DNA of 64,000 bases from Desulfuromonadaceae bacterium (GTDB taxonomy: Bacteria > Desulfobacterota > Desulfuromonadia > Geobacterales > Pseudopelobacteraceae). Shown piece by piece: positions 23,927 through 55,031 of this stretch. The position numbers and the translations under genes are program-made. Each line of letters begins with the position of its first letter. The first letter of the stretch is position 1. The notes beneath the pieces are model-generated. The model was not told where the DNA came from and ran no database searches. It worked only from the letters and a program-made list of their open reading frames with translations. The stretch lies in assembly GCA_028683435.1 (NCBI GenBank), contig JAQUIG010000003.1, positions 62,001 through 126,000 on the forward strand, in the 5' to 3' direction.

Positions 23927-24928
23927 TTACCGTGATGTTTCCGGCTCCTGTCCGGCTGCACTGTTCCCGGTAGAGGTGACAGCTTCGGTTGCGGGGGGTG
24001 GTACCTTCTCCGGATCGTGAAACTCGATCCGGTTTCTGCCATTGGCTTTGGCCCGATACAGGGCATCGTCAGCCAGTTTGATAAACCCGTCGACGGTAAG
24101 GGAATGCTCACTGGAAAAGCAGGCAACCCCCAGGCTGACGGTAAGGCGAAGTTTGGCAAGAGGTTCGCTGAATATGTTGCTCTGCACCGCCAGCCGGATT
24201 CGGTCGGCCACGAAAAGGGCATCTTTTAGTGACGAATCCGGCAGGATGGCGACAAATTCCTCACCGCCGTAACGGGCGGCATAGTCATAGCTGCGCAACT
24301 CTTTTTGCAGAAGCAAAGAGACAATCTGCAGTACGGCATCCCCCTGCAGATGGCCAAAATCGTCATTGACCTTCTTGAAATTATCGATGTCAAGCATGAT
24401 CAGCGACAGACTGCCCCCTTTGCGACTGCTGCGATGCACCTCTTTATCGAGAGCTTCCATCATGTAGCGGCGGTTAAAGAGTCCTGTCAGATGGTCGGTG
24501 TTGGAAAGTTCGAGCAGCAGTTCGTTGGAGCGCTTCAGTTCGTCCTGCAGTTTCTTGATCTTCAGGTGAACCTTGACCCTGGCGACCAGCTCTTCCGGAT
24601 CAAAGGGTTTGGTGATGTAGTCACTGGCCCCCTGTTCAAGCCCTTTGATCTTACGCTCACGATCGTCCATACCGGTGAGAATGATAACAGGAACATCCTG
24701 GAGTTCGGGACGGGACTTGAGCATGTTCAGGAATTTAAAGCCATCGATGCGCGGCATCTCCAGGTCACACAGGATGATGTCCACGGGAGACGCAAGGAGC
24801 TTCTTAAACCCTTCCAGGCCATCCTCTGCCTCGTAATAGCGGGAGAAGAGACTGAATGTCTCAAGAGTTCTGATGATCTGCTCCCTGACGGTAACGGAAT
24901 CATCTATTATCAGTACACTGGTGAACAT
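23927..24928 (-). CDS. Response regulator with GGDEF domain (diguanylate cyclase)
   Basis: A 333-residue PleD/WspR-like protein. The receiver domain (residues 1-120) has acidic IDDS, phospho-acceptor Asp in IILCDLEMP, Thr in VIILTG and Lys in YITKPFDPEEL. A coiled linker leads to a GGDEF domain with DIDNFKKVNDDFGH and the active signature YGGEEF. An inhibitory I-site RSYD lies five residues before GGEEF. It should make a cyclic dinucleotide when phosphorylated. A GEMM-type riboswitch for such messengers is present at 41.8 kb. Confidence 0.94.
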   Translation of the reverse strand: MFTSVLIIDDSVTVREQIIRTLETFSLFSRYYEAEDGLEGFKKLLASPVDIILCDLEMPRIDGFKFLNMLKSRPELQDVPVIILTGMDDRERKIKGLEQGASDYITKPFDPEELVARVKVHLKIKKLQDELKRSNELLLELSNTDHLTGLFNRRYMMEALDKEVHRSSRKGGSLSLIMLDIDNFKKVNDDFGHLQGDAVLQIVSLLLQKELRSYDYAARYGGEEFVAILPDSSLKDALFVADRIRLAVQSNIFSEPLAKLRLTVSLGVACFSSEHSLTVDGFIKLADDALYRAKANGRNRIEFHDPEKVPPPATEAVTSTGNSAAGQEPETSR

Positions 24929-41302: not shown

Positions 41303-41635
41303 CTACTGCTCAGCGCCCCATTTGTCAGAGAAAAAGCAGTGGTGGAGTTTGTTTTGTACATTTACCGCCCCAAAAATTTCGTCAGCCTCTTCTTGACTAA
41401 GACCGACTTTTGGACGCACTCCCATCCAGTGAGTTGCCGTTTCAGAAGGAGTATCTAATGGTCGAGGCAATGGAGGCCCTGGTTTGTAATGCCCATTGAT
41501 AAGGAGAATGGCCTCATACTGGCGTGGGTATTTGACGAGATAAACCTCAATCAGCATGCCGTTATTCAGCGTTTTTTCAATGATCTGGCTAATAACTTCA
41601 GCCTCTTTTGGGACATCGATAAATAGAGACGACAT
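41303..41635 (-). CDS. Hypothetical protein, first gene after a GEMM riboswitch
   Basis: A 110-residue protein starting at ATG 41635, which has a near-perfect AAGGAGGAAACAGTCT Shine-Dalgarno region; a longer frame to 41665 runs into it. It contains SSLFIDVPKEAEVISQIIEK, a central strand-rich YLVKYPRQYEAILLINGHY, a Pro-rich GPPLPRPLDTP turn and VGLSQEEADEIFGAV. I do not recognise the family. A riboswitch of the GEMM class and an intrinsic terminator lie upstream on the same strand, so it is probably controlled by a cyclic dinucleotide. Confidence 0.7.
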   Translation of the reverse strand: MSSLFIDVPKEAEVISQIIEKTLNNGMLIEVYLVKYPRQYEAILLINGHYKPGPPLPRPLDTPSETATHWMGVRPKVGLSQEEADEIFGAVNVQNKLHHCFFSDKWGAEQ

Positions 41636-41713
41636 AGACTGTTTCCTCCTTTTGTTGTGCGGCATCCAGTATTAATTTCTGAGCAAATGTTCCTTTATTG
41701 CGGTGCAAAAAAC

Positions 41714-41745
41714 AAAAAAACCTGCTTTTCAATTGAAAAGGCAGG
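41714..41745 (-). terminator. Intrinsic terminator after the GEMM aptamer
   Basis: On the minus strand CCTGCCTTTTC / GAAAAGCAGG with an AATT loop and one bulged base, followed by seven T, then GTTTTTT. It lies between the aptamer and the 110-residue gene, the expected expression platform of a riboswitch acting on transcription. Confidence 0.8.
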
Positions 41746-41777
41746 GTGGATTCAATGTTGCAATCATACAACATCTG

Positions 41778-41862
41778 TCAACCGCTTCGGTAACCCCTCT
41801 TCCCTTTTTGGGTAGGTGGCTTTGCGTCACCCGGTTCCCCGGACTTTGCCTTTTCGATAAGT
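41778..41862 (-). promoter_or_regulatory. GEMM-class cyclic dinucleotide riboswitch
   Basis: On the minus strand the hallmark segments appear in order: AAGGCAAAG; a stem CCGG capped by a GGAA (GNRA) tetraloop and closed by CCGG; then GTGACGCAAAGCCACC; a short second stem CCTACCC...GGGAAGAGG; and GGGGTTACCGAAG. GNRA loop plus GACGCAAAGCC is the signature of GEMM-I aptamers, which bind c-di-GMP or, in Geobacter relatives, 3',3'-cGAMP. I cannot assign the ligand by eye, since that depends on the aligned nucleotide equivalent to position 20 of the Vc2 RNA. The terminator at 41714-41745 follows. Confidence 0.85.
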
Positions 41863-41910
41863 ACTGTTTTTTTGCACTATGTACTGACTTAAAAAGTTTG
41901 TCCATGGAAA

Positions 41911-41939
41911 ACTAAATAAAGAAAGCGGTGTTTAGTCAA
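41911..41939 (-). promoter_or_regulatory. Promoter of the riboswitch transcript
   Basis: On the minus strand TTGACT (41939-41934), a 17-base spacer and TTTAGT (41916-41911, 4 of 6). The transcript would begin about 40 bases before the aptamer. Confidence 0.45.
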
Positions 41940-51423: not shown

Positions 51424-52056
51424 ATGATCAATTTGAAATTGTTTCGCCGCCCTGTTTCTGCTACAGATAAAAGCATGAAACAAAAAGCTCGATCACGTAT
51501 AAACGCATTAGTACCGTTGCTTAAAGACCCCGTACCGGGCGTAAGAGCCGCGGCAGCCGAGGCGATTGAAAAGCTGGAAGCGCTCAGCGCTGTTGATGAC
51601 ATTCTTGCAACGCTTAAAACGGGAAGCATGGGCGCCCGCATCGGTGCCATCTATGCACTCGGTGAGATTGGCGGAGAGAAGGTGCTGCCGCCGCTCGTCT
51701 ACTGTGCCCGAAGGCCCGAAGTGGATCTCCGCTCGGCCGCCGTGGAGGTACTGGGAAGGTTGGCATTGCCGGCAGCTCTCCCGGTCGTGGCAGAGCTTCT
51801 CGATGATGAAAACCCGACGGTTCAGGGTCGGGCGATAGCGGCGCTGCGTTACTTCTCACCCTCTCCGGATGTTCTCAACAAGCTGCGCCACTTCCTGAGC
51901 GCGAGTGACGGAGTGTTGGAGGCCGAAGCGGCAATGACCCTGGCGGGACTCAATGACCAGTATTCATTGGGCAGAATTCGTGCGCTTTTGGCGTCTGGTC
52001 ACGCCTCAACCCGGCAGGCGGCCGCAACGGCACTCAGTATTATGCCGCTTCAGTAA
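51424..52056 (+). CDS. HEAT-repeat protein
   Basis: A 210-residue protein made of tandem HEAT repeats (for example LLKDPVPGVRAAAAEAIEKL, GEIGGEKVLPPLVYCARR, LDDENPTVQGRAIAALRYF). Such repeats form a curved protein-binding scaffold, often in regulation. It lies next to the HD-GYP and second HEAT genes and its 3' end overlaps the convergent HD-GYP gene by 17 bases. No signal peptide. Confidence 0.85.
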   Translation: MINLKLFRRPVSATDKSMKQKARSRINALVPLLKDPVPGVRAAAAEAIEKLEALSAVDDILATLKTGSMGARIGAIYALGEIGGEKVLPPLVYCARRPEVDLRSAAVEVLGRLALPAALPVVAELLDDENPTVQGRAIAALRYFSPSPDVLNKLRHFLSASDGVLEAEAAMTLAGLNDQYSLGRIRALLASGHASTRQAAATALSIMPLQ

Positions 52057-53440
52057 ATCCACCTGTAATCAATCGCCCGATATCGATGTCCTTGAGCAGC
52101 GGATCAACGACCGCGACTATTGCGGCGTAATGCGACCCGTCAGAGCCGACCAACGCTTGCTCGCGCGGTACCGGTAACCGCTCTCCTTCGCCGTCAATCA
52201 CAATCCTCACCAGCGGTGCCTTCCCGTCCTGCGGGTTTGGACGATGCACAAGCGCAACCTCGTTGGTATCAAGGCGTACGAGCGTGCCCACCGGATAGTC
52301 CCCCATCATTTTTATAAAACACTCAACAATAGCTCCGTTTAGAATTGTGCCCGCCAATTTCTGCATCTCATCAAGGGCTGCCTTCGGGGTGGCCGGGTGC
52401 TGATAAACGCGCAATGTCGTGATGGCATCGTAGGTATCAGCAACAGCAACAATATCAATCATCTGATTAAAGGGTAACTGGGTTGCCCATTCAGGATATC
52501 CGCTCCGGTTATAGTGCAGGTGATGCCCAAGCACAACGGAGGAAATATGCGGTGCCAGTCCCTCCATTTCACGGATGATTTTGGAACCGAACTCAGGGTG
52601 CCGTTTCATTTCATCAAATTCATCGCTGGAAAACTTGCCAGGCTTATTAAGAATGTTTTTCGGGATCATGACTTTGCCGATATCGTGGAGTTGCCCCGCA
52701 ATTCCCAGGTTCCTGACGGACATTGTGTCCAGGCCGAGTGTCGCCCCCAGCGCCATCGACAGAACGCCGACATTAACGCAGTGATTAAAGGTGTAATGGT
52801 CATAATCCTTGATCATTGTTAATCCCAGCAGCGCCCACGGCTCCTCCATGGTGATTGCGACCATCTTGTCAACAACCTTTATCAGCGGGGCACTGTTCGG
52901 GATGCGCCCCCGTTCAATATCGCGGCAGATCGTTTTAATGGCGGAGAGTGCGCGGGTGTACGCTGCGACGTGACCACCCTCGGGGACGATTTCAGCGTCA
53001 TCGTTGCCCTGATCAAAAGTTTCGTCGCCATGACGGACCAGTTTAAGGGAGGTGACCCCCCCTTCCGCCATCTGAACTGAAAGAGTGTCAAAGCGGACAC
53101 TTCTGGAAGAAAAGAGTTTGACGAATAATTCCAGTTCACCAAAGCTGACCGATGAGGTCGCTGTAATCCGGGCGATCCCTTTCTCGGTCAGCCGCTCCGT
53201 CAGGTCGGCGATTGCCGTTGAGGGTGCGATGAAGAGGTGATCGTCAAAGAACATGATGCCGTCGATAAGCCCCCAGGAAACCTGCTCTCCACAGCTGAGG
53301 GCCGTTGTCAGAATTTTATAGAGCTCCATGAGCGGTTGTCTGATCGCCGGGTGTGAAGGGGGGTAAAAGGCCATTCCTTTGACCGAGCCGGAAAAAAGAG
53401 TGATCAGTCTCAGTGCGTTCGGCTTATCAAGAGATCCCAT
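52040..53440 (-). CDS. HD-GYP domain phosphodiesterase with shared N-terminal domain
   Basis: A 466-residue protein. The N-terminal 150 residues (FYPPSHPAIRQPL, FFDDHLFIAPSTAIADL) resemble the start of the neighbouring HEAT protein. The C-terminal half has an HD-GYP domain with HDIGK, a later HH pair and the GYP element RSGYP. These enzymes degrade c-di-GMP to pGpG or GMP, although the HHE motif reads HHL here. Start 53440 has AGGGAG ahead and overlaps the stop of the HEAT gene by 14 bases, so the two are translated together. Confidence 0.9.
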   Translation of the reverse strand: MGSLDKPNALRLITLFSGSVKGMAFYPPSHPAIRQPLMELYKILTTALSCGEQVSWGLIDGIMFFDDHLFIAPSTAIADLTERLTEKGIARITATSSVSFGELELFVKLFSSRSVRFDTLSVQMAEGGVTSLKLVRHGDETFDQGNDDAEIVPEGGHVAAYTRALSAIKTICRDIERGRIPNSAPLIKVVDKMVAITMEEPWALLGLTMIKDYDHYTFNHCVNVGVLSMALGATLGLDTMSVRNLGIAGQLHDIGKVMIPKNILNKPGKFSSDEFDEMKRHPEFGSKIIREMEGLAPHISSVVLGHHLHYNRSGYPEWATQLPFNQMIDIVAVADTYDAITTLRVYQHPATPKAALDEMQKLAGTILNGAIVECFIKMMGDYPVGTLVRLDTNEVALVHRPNPQDGKAPLVRIVIDGEGERLPVPREQALVGSDGSHYAAIVAVVDPLLKDIDIGRLITGGFTEAA

Positions 53441-55031
53441 CAGCTCTCCCTTCTGCTTTCTCAATCAAAGCAACTGCATCGGCACAAGCAGAGCCGACTT
53501 CTCCGCCGCTGGCGGCAAGTTTTTTAAGGGGCGGCAGAGCCCTGACGTCACCAAGCTTTCCCAGACAGGCGGCTATGGACGCTTTCAACCGTTTTCCGCG
53601 GGTTGCTGCTAGAAAATACCGCGCTTCGAGGAATGTTATAAGATGCGGTGTCACCTGCCGTTCACCGATTAAGGCGATGGCCGCCAGGGCATCAATTTTG
53701 AGAGGGAGCGATTGCAAAAACAGGTCTCTGGAAAACACGATCTTCATAAGTTCAGCTAACGATTTTCTGCTCTTCATCCCACCCAGCGAAGCTATTGCTT
53801 GCGGGTAGAGTGCCCTGTCTGTGCTGCGGAGAATGTCTATAATAGCGCCCTCAGCCTCATCTCCTCCAAGCTGTGCCAGGCTGCGGATAGCTTCTTTCCG
53901 CACGCGAAGGTCGAGGTGGTGCAGGCTCTCCGCCAGCGCCGTCAGCGCCTCGCCGCTTGCGATGGAACCAAGAATTGCGCAGATATTTCGTGTGATGAAC
54001 CAGCGGGGGTCATGTATCAAATCCAGAAGCACAGGCACAGCAGTTTCACCGAGATTCCCCAGCGTTGTGGAGAGGATCTTTCTAACCCTAAGACTGTTGC
54101 TGCGCCCCATCAGTTCGATCGCTGACGTAATAGCGGCGGTGCCGCCGGCTTTCAGAAGCGTATGAAGAGCTTTGTCGGACACTCCATCCTCGAGCTCTAT
54201 CCGCTCAAGTACGGTCTGCAGGAGTTCTCCTGTTGCGATAATCTGCTCTATTGCAAAGGTTGCCCCCTCTTGCATGAGCCGACTGCGCGTTTCGTCGCCG
54301 GCATGACCGGCCAGCAATTCAATCAGCGGGAAAAGGAGGAGTGCCTCATGGCGCGCTTGGAGATTGTCGGCACAGGAAACCGCCTCACGGATCAGTCTCA
54401 AATAGATGTCGTCATCGGCACAGGTTGCCAACCGCCCAAGCAACCCCTGAAGCATCTGTTCAGGAGAGGGCGAATCAGGCTGGGGTGATAGCTGCGCAAC
54501 GACAGGGGGGGGGGCATCACCGGTTTCTGCTTCATCAATACCCTGTGGAATAACCCCGGCCTGTTCGATCTTTTGGCGTTTTATGCGGATCGCTGCCAGA
54601 TCAAACTCATTGACCCAGATGGAGCGAACGCCACGCGCGTCCATCATCGTGTCGAAGCCCCCGTATTGCTGGATCGCTTCGGGAGGCAGGCACAATATCT
54701 TCACAAGTTCAAGCAGGTCTTCCAGGAACAGGTCAGGGGAAAACGTTATTTTTTGAACCCGGCGGACAAACAGCTCGAACGCAAGCGCGGTCGTCATCCC
54801 GAATGGATCTTTGAGATGTTCACCATCCGGGAAACTTAAACCGGTGCGGCCGCAGCAGAGTAAAAGCGTATTGCCGTCGAGCAGCTGCAGCATCGTCGCG
54901 TGAGCCTGACTCAGGCTCATGCGCCTGGTCGGGTGCCCTTTCGGATAAAACTTCCATGCCCGCACGGCGCGGTAAATGCTGCCGAGCGCGTCAAGTGTCC
55001 CATGGGTTGTTGGTGGTCGATAGAAATCCAT
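53427..55031 (-). CDS. HEAT-repeat protein sharing an N-terminal domain with the HD-GYP protein
   Basis: A 534-residue protein. Residues 1-130 resemble the N-terminal region of the adjacent HD-GYP protein (YPKGHPTRRMSL; FPDGEHLKDPFGMTTALAFE). The central part is helical and linker-like, and the C-terminal 230 residues form HEAT repeats. It is the first gene of the pair. The shared domain looks like a sensing or docking module paired with either a catalytic or a scaffold domain. I do not know a named family for it. Confidence 0.85.
   Translation of the reverse strand: MDFYRPPTTHGTLDALGSIYRAVRAWKFYPKGHPTRRMSLSQAHATMLQLLDGNTLLLCCGRTGLSFPDGEHLKDPFGMTTALAFELFVRRVQKITFSPDLFLEDLLELVKILCLPPEAIQQYGGFDTMMDARGVRSIWVNEFDLAAIRIKRQKIEQAGVIPQGIDEAETGDAPPPVVAQLSPQPDSPSPEQMLQGLLGRLATCADDDIYLRLIREAVSCADNLQARHEALLLFPLIELLAGHAGDETRSRLMQEGATFAIEQIIATGELLQTVLERIELEDGVSDKALHTLLKAGGTAAITSAIELMGRSNSLRVRKILSTTLGNLGETAVPVLLDLIHDPRWFITRNICAILGSIASGEALTALAESLHHLDLRVRKEAIRSLAQLGGDEAEGAIIDILRSTDRALYPQAIASLGGMKSRKSLAELMKIVFSRDLFLQSLPLKIDALAAIALIGERQVTPHLITFLEARYFLAATRGKRLKASIAACLGKLGDVRALPPLKKLAASGGEVGSACADAVALIEKAEGRADGIS

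Follow-up and report, generated by a model that had tools for sequence, protein, structure and literature searches.

The window examined here, the whole stretch of 64,000 nucleotides, carries on its minus strand a compact unit in which a promoter-like site, a GEMM-I aptamer and an intrinsic terminator precede two small genes. Its elements are as follows:

41904-41876, minus strand: preferred promoter (-35 TGGACA, 17 nt, -10 CATAGT), from a promoter scanner and conservation in relatives.
41860-41786, minus strand: GEMM-I (c-di-GMP-I) aptamer matching RF01051, with G at the position equivalent to Vc2-20 and a GGAA tetraloop on P2.
41855-41847, minus strand: aptamer strand GAAAAGGCA, putative first half of an antiterminator, exact 9-nt complement of 41743-41735.
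41745-41714, minus strand: intrinsic terminator hairpin and T-run, from sequence, folding and conservation in relatives.
41743-41735, minus strand: TGCCTTTTC within the 5' arm of the terminator, putative second half of the antiterminator, from complementarity and shuffles.
41635-41303, minus strand: gene 1, 110 aa, with homologs; a family of one order, with a sister branch beside mglBA.
41262-41062, minus strand: gene 2, 66 aa, a predicted three-helix protein with homologs; a free-standing copy of an HD-GYP C-terminal tail, judged by similarity.

The original prediction of a GEMM-I aptamer on the minus strand, followed by a terminator and two genes of 110 and 66 residues, is borne out. The covariance match to RF01051 scores 60.5 bits (gathering score 35, E 2.3e-9), spans the full length of the model (1-87) and is the sole Rfam match in the window. 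The terminator reads CCTGC-c-TTTTC-AATT-GAAAA-GCAGG followed by T7 and folds at -10.8 kcal/mol, and both the hairpin and the T-run are retained in relatives; a simple terminator scanner did not pick up this hairpin, for which its one bulged C is held responsible. Upstream of gene 1 lies AAAGGAGG, and a spacing of 40 nt leads to gene 2, which falls outside the interval first noted (41303-41939). Both frames are regarded as real genes because they have homologs, with protein identities of 37-82% for gene 1 and 45-76% for gene 2. A promoter had also been proposed, and a promoter-like site does precede the aptamer, but the hexamers originally chosen (TTGACT-N17-TTTAGT, ~35 nt farther upstream) rank below the second of the two candidates, TGGACA-N17-CATAGT. 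The latter is preferred because its -10 hexamer is kept at a similar place before the aptamer in four relatives (TTGACA-N17-CATAGT) and is close in two more (CATTGT or CATATT). Since the scan found one promoter-like site where 1.8 are expected by chance, the case for a promoter depends on this conservation. The GGDEF and HD-GYP genes pointed out elsewhere in the window do exist (23927-24928 and 52040-53464, both on the minus strand) but unlinked to the riboswitch unit.

A scan of the genome (3.17 Mb, 97 contigs) revealed 11 GEMM-I aptamers, eight of which are of the A20 type with cores AATACT...CGGAAA; in the alignment of the genome's aptamers the G20 type is represented by three copies, located in the window and on contigs C60 and C31. 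The AATACT core of the eight is presumably that of the published cGAMP aptamers. The C31 copy (2738-2828; L003) precedes a gene whose product is probably secreted. The window aptamer lacks the A20 and associated core of GEMM-Ib cGAMP riboswitches, its core being GGC...GACGCAAAG as against ACT...GACGGAAAG in the A20 aptamers. In a Geobacter aptamer the A20G change shifts selectivity from cGAMP to c-di-GMP (A20/G20 rule; PMC6456294), and the comparison at Vc2 position 20 that accompanied the original prediction returns G, so the window aptamer is predicted to sense c-di-GMP and not cGAMP.

The direction of the switch is suggested by the aptamer strand GAAAAGGCA, which includes the G20 equivalent and is exactly complementary to the terminator arm. 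Exact complements of 9-10 nt occur in seven leaders, a length attained by shuffled arms in 0-9 of 2000 trials (9 of 2000 for the 9-nt complement of the window leader), and over 13 leaders 94% of the antiterminator cells are paired, compared with 38-57% after sliding the alignment by 1-3 columns. Two-sided (compensatory) changes were not found in the antiterminator of these 13 leaders, so covariation is not claimed for it; the aptamer core is not at liberty to change. In 9 of the 13 leaders the terminator leaves the second C of TGCC unpaired, yet this C is retained, and in the antiterminator it pairs with the G20 equivalent. According to the computed energies, the antiterminator of the window leader without ligand is better than the terminator fold by ~4 kcal/mol; the full-length terminator fold wins in three of ten leaders computed (L133, L132, and L051), and kinetics would therefore matter in those three.

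In silico the terminator can coexist with the bound aptamer but not with an antiterminator whose formation disrupts that aptamer, which is the arrangement of an OFF switch. When c-di-GMP is scarce, the aptamer's 5' strand, holder of the ligand-contacting G, would pair with the terminator's 5' arm and, once this antiterminator has formed, RNA polymerase would continue into both genes. When c-di-GMP is abundant, the same strand would be retained by the bound aptamer, the terminator would fold and gene 1 and gene 2 would be silenced; ligand binding is expected to free the terminator precisely because the strand and the arm are exact complements. The leader thus appears to be a c-di-GMP-sensing transcriptional OFF switch, with ligand and direction both deduced from sequence, and the earlier proposal of a GEMM-I riboswitch in control of both genes, within a cyclic-dinucleotide network, is supported at the level of prediction.

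Two other readings of the leader have to be weighed against this one. The same aptamer with the same ligand might act as an ON switch, c-di-GMP raising the expression of both genes, and the order does contain ON switches of this aptamer family, such as the cGAMP switch of Geobacter metallireducens pilM (PMC9262584). However, the A20 leaders of this genome, which are of the ON type, are built oppositely, with the 3' strand of the aptamer inside the terminator as in the published pilM switch (PMC9262584), whereas the terminator in the window is separate and tolerates the bound aptamer, and the competing pairing disrupts the strand that binds the ligand; we regard the ON design as improbable here. 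Equally improbable is the proposal that the aptamer reads cGAMP, or both cyclic dinucleotides, and that the unit is part of the Geobacter network for cGAMP and metal respiration. The eight cGAMP-type aptamers of the same genome speak for it, as does the related HD-GYP protein described below, whose best known-structure match is a cGAMP-specific phosphodiesterase; the G at the very position where an A-to-G change converts a Geobacter cGAMP aptamer, together with the dissimilar core, speaks against it. The link to extracellular electron transfer or cGAMP is not supported as originally put. The c-di-GMP OFF switch is the reading retained below.

Neither gene 1 nor gene 2 gave anything above cut-offs against Pfam and NCBIfam, or anything significant against PDB sequence profiles. 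Weak Pfam and NCBIfam matches of the two proteins (MqsA, tautomerase, spectrin) fell under the cut-offs and were rejected. The earlier remark that the proteins belong to no familiar family holds as far as these models go, but it misses that gene 2 corresponds to a detached HD-GYP tail and that gene 1 has a sister in mglBA operons.

Gene 2 matches the C-terminal tail (approximately residues 340-390) of ~400-aa HD-GYP proteins at 45-67% identity over ~50 residues, with E-values from 1e-17 to 1e-11 in seven proteins, a similarity sufficient to assign it to the tail domain. A profile search across 141 genomes matched two kinds of frame, short free-standing ones and ones 399-445 aa in length; the seven long frames that were read all encode HD-GYP proteins. 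Structural modelling gives gene 2 a three-helix bundle (pLDDT 79). By homology, then, gene 2 is an HD-GYP C-terminal tail that stands as a gene of its own. It precedes an HD-GYP gene in eight genomes, either in the order gene 1-gene 2-tail-less 320-aa HD-GYP (G006, G012, G018, G031, and G042) or as gene 2-HD-GYP (G015, G041, and G083). The window operon has no HD-GYP gene of its own; in this genome the gene is found on contig C60, ~180 nt behind its own c-di-GMP-type aptamer, while G041 is split differently, into aptamer-gene 1 and aptamer-gene 2-HD-GYP. Across these splits, then, the aptamer goes with parts of a single module in varied arrangements. A second tail-less HD-GYP gene, 74% identical to the C60 copy, occurs at C80:73828-74781 (L111), adjoining a sensor kinase and a masked stretch; no aptamer was found within the flanks examined.

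Gene 2 most likely has as its partner the tail-less HD-GYP protein of 320 aa encoded on contig C60. This putative partner carries an HD_5 domain (PF13487, E 4e-24) with the HD, H, HH, and D positions and GYP in place, HDYGM replaces HDxGK (lysine to Met), and the best structural match mentioned above is 5z7c; it could hydrolyse c-di-GMP, cGAMP or neither. If it degrades c-di-GMP and its own leader is of the OFF type, positive feedback would arise and make the transition between attachment and movement sharper; if it degrades cGAMP, the switch would let c-di-GMP control a second messenger, cGAMP. In the leader of the C60 gene (L120) the antiterminator would need another, weaker pairing and the OFF logic is uncertain, so the feedback is put forward as a hypothesis. 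In the HD-GYP leaders L120-L122 the terminator loop (TTGCGTC in L120, TTTGCGTC in L122) is complementary to the core GACGCAAA of the aptamer, L121 being one base off, and this pairing may constitute a different antiterminator.

Homologs of gene 1 are present in 65 of 98 relatives, and among 297 sampled genomes of the phylum the family occurs in this order alone. The motifs GPPxP and HWMGxRPxxGLxxEEA stand out in a profile of 51 sequences, and the tree separates the aptamer-linked branch from a sister branch that forms the third gene after mglB-mglA at 12 loci, where the mglA and mglB domains were confirmed; the window gene itself lies outside the mglB-mglA operon, so that mgl membership applies to the sister branch only. 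The genome retains just after mglA, on contig C23 (L108:1501-1596), a ~30-codon remnant of a gene 1 paralogue that is intact in relatives. A further branch of short, 96-aa members (L085-L095) is divergent from MoxR ATPase/DUF58 genes in several loci. The model of gene 1 comprises a beta-rich domain and a C-terminal helix (pLDDT 84), for which Foldseek and VIA returned no significant match; the best row of the structural comparison is DsbG (Z 5.5), and weak rows include PH, FERM, and RanBP1 domains (Z ~4, rmsd ~5 over 87-101 residues), which makes a PH-like fold no more than a lead. Gene 1 most likely belongs to the same pathway as gene 2 and possibly acts on the MglA/MglB polarity GTPase, a role suggested because its sister is the third mglBA gene and this genome has lost that copy.

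The idea that both proteins always follow a GEMM aptamer does not hold: most gene 1 copies among the relatives are aptamer-free, and gene 1-gene 2(-HD-GYP) operons without aptamer were found (L023, L026, L017, L018, and L022), so the riboswitch is better described as an optional controller. Wide occurrence without an upstream aptamer had been named at the outset as a refuting observation, and this part of the original proposal is refuted by it. A leader model (R1) built from ten leaders of the window type matches in 84 of 98 genomes, and strong matches outside the module precede genes for PilZ, bactofilin, REC-HD, PAS/GAF, rubrerythrin, and CBS proteins, several R1 leaders sharing the TGCCTTTT arm. 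The unit is thus one of several under such a switch, and the R1 target genes are consistent with surface attachment and motility. Among relatives, the leader type occurs before bactofilin, PilZ, and REC-HD genes at L187, L190, L194, L197, and L198, suggestive of a wider c-di-GMP regulon.

The main competing account of the proteins is that they are unrelated to c-di-GMP turnover or polarity, gene 1 being a lineage-specific protein that is variously controlled and whose neighbours are incidental. The varied contexts of gene 1 (beside mglBA, MoxR/DUF58, a potassium transporter, or alone) and the frequent lack of the aptamer give this account some weight, but it leaves unexplained the homology between gene 2 and HD-GYP tails, the position of gene 2 before HD-GYP genes, and the separation of the operon's two parts behind same-type aptamers both here and in G041; on balance it seems unlikely. 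A toxin-antitoxin role for gene 1, suggested by Pfam MqsA_antitoxin at E 0.04, is hardly credible, as that match reaches 14.5 bits against a cut-off of 30, and was seen in 2 of 51 family members; moreover, no toxin gene adjoins gene 1, and the conserved neighbourhoods contain no toxic partner gene. We keep as probable that the unit is a c-di-GMP OFF switch over an HD-GYP-linked gene 2 and a possibly polarity-linked gene 1. The locus is best read as one member of a c-di-GMP OFF regulon that serves surface behaviour, with protein functions that are putative. The fullest version, an order-wide OFF regulon with positive feedback via an HD-GYP protein with a separate tail and with gene 1 coupling to the MglA GTPase, is speculative and rather unlikely to hold in its entirety.

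On these grounds two unannotated small proteins become testable parts of c-di-GMP signalling. Gene 2 would be a case in which nature has divided an HD-GYP protein between a catalytic gene and a tail gene, which makes the role of the tail testable by add-back, and gene 1 is a candidate link from c-di-GMP to the MglA/MglB polarity switch. A single genome with GEMM-I aptamers predicted for c-di-GMP (the window one of OFF type) and for cGAMP (ON) would moreover allow opposite responses to be compared in one cell.

Full-text literature searches retrieved no description of the riboswitch-gene 1-gene 2 module, yet each of its parts can be set beside a known system. With the GEMM-I/c-di-GMP-I class (RF01051; Vc2, Cd1) the window aptamer shares the full-length match, the core, the GNRA tetraloop on P2, and G20, but its P3 is short. 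Transcriptional OFF logic is common to the proposed switch and Cd1 (PMC9262584); however, the putative antiterminator in the window takes the 5' aptamer strand with G20, whereas the switching strand of Cd1 pairs with the 3' strand (PMC9262584). The Geobacter cGAMP riboswitches (GEMM-Ib; Gm0970, Gs1761, pilM), to which the eight A20 copies of this genome correspond, have the same aptamer fold and differ in A20, the ACT/GGAAAG core, and an ON design whose terminator includes the 3' strand of the aptamer. The putative HD-GYP partner shares the HD_5 domain and the HD, HH, and GYP motifs with the phosphodiesterases V-cGAP3 (5z7c), PmGH (4mcw), and Bd1817 (3tm8), from which it departs in HDYGM and, in the riboswitch-linked form, in having its tail as the separate gene 2. 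As for the MglA/MglB polarity GTPase module, the sister of gene 1 comes third after mglB-mglA, whereas gene 1 itself stands outside the mgl operon.
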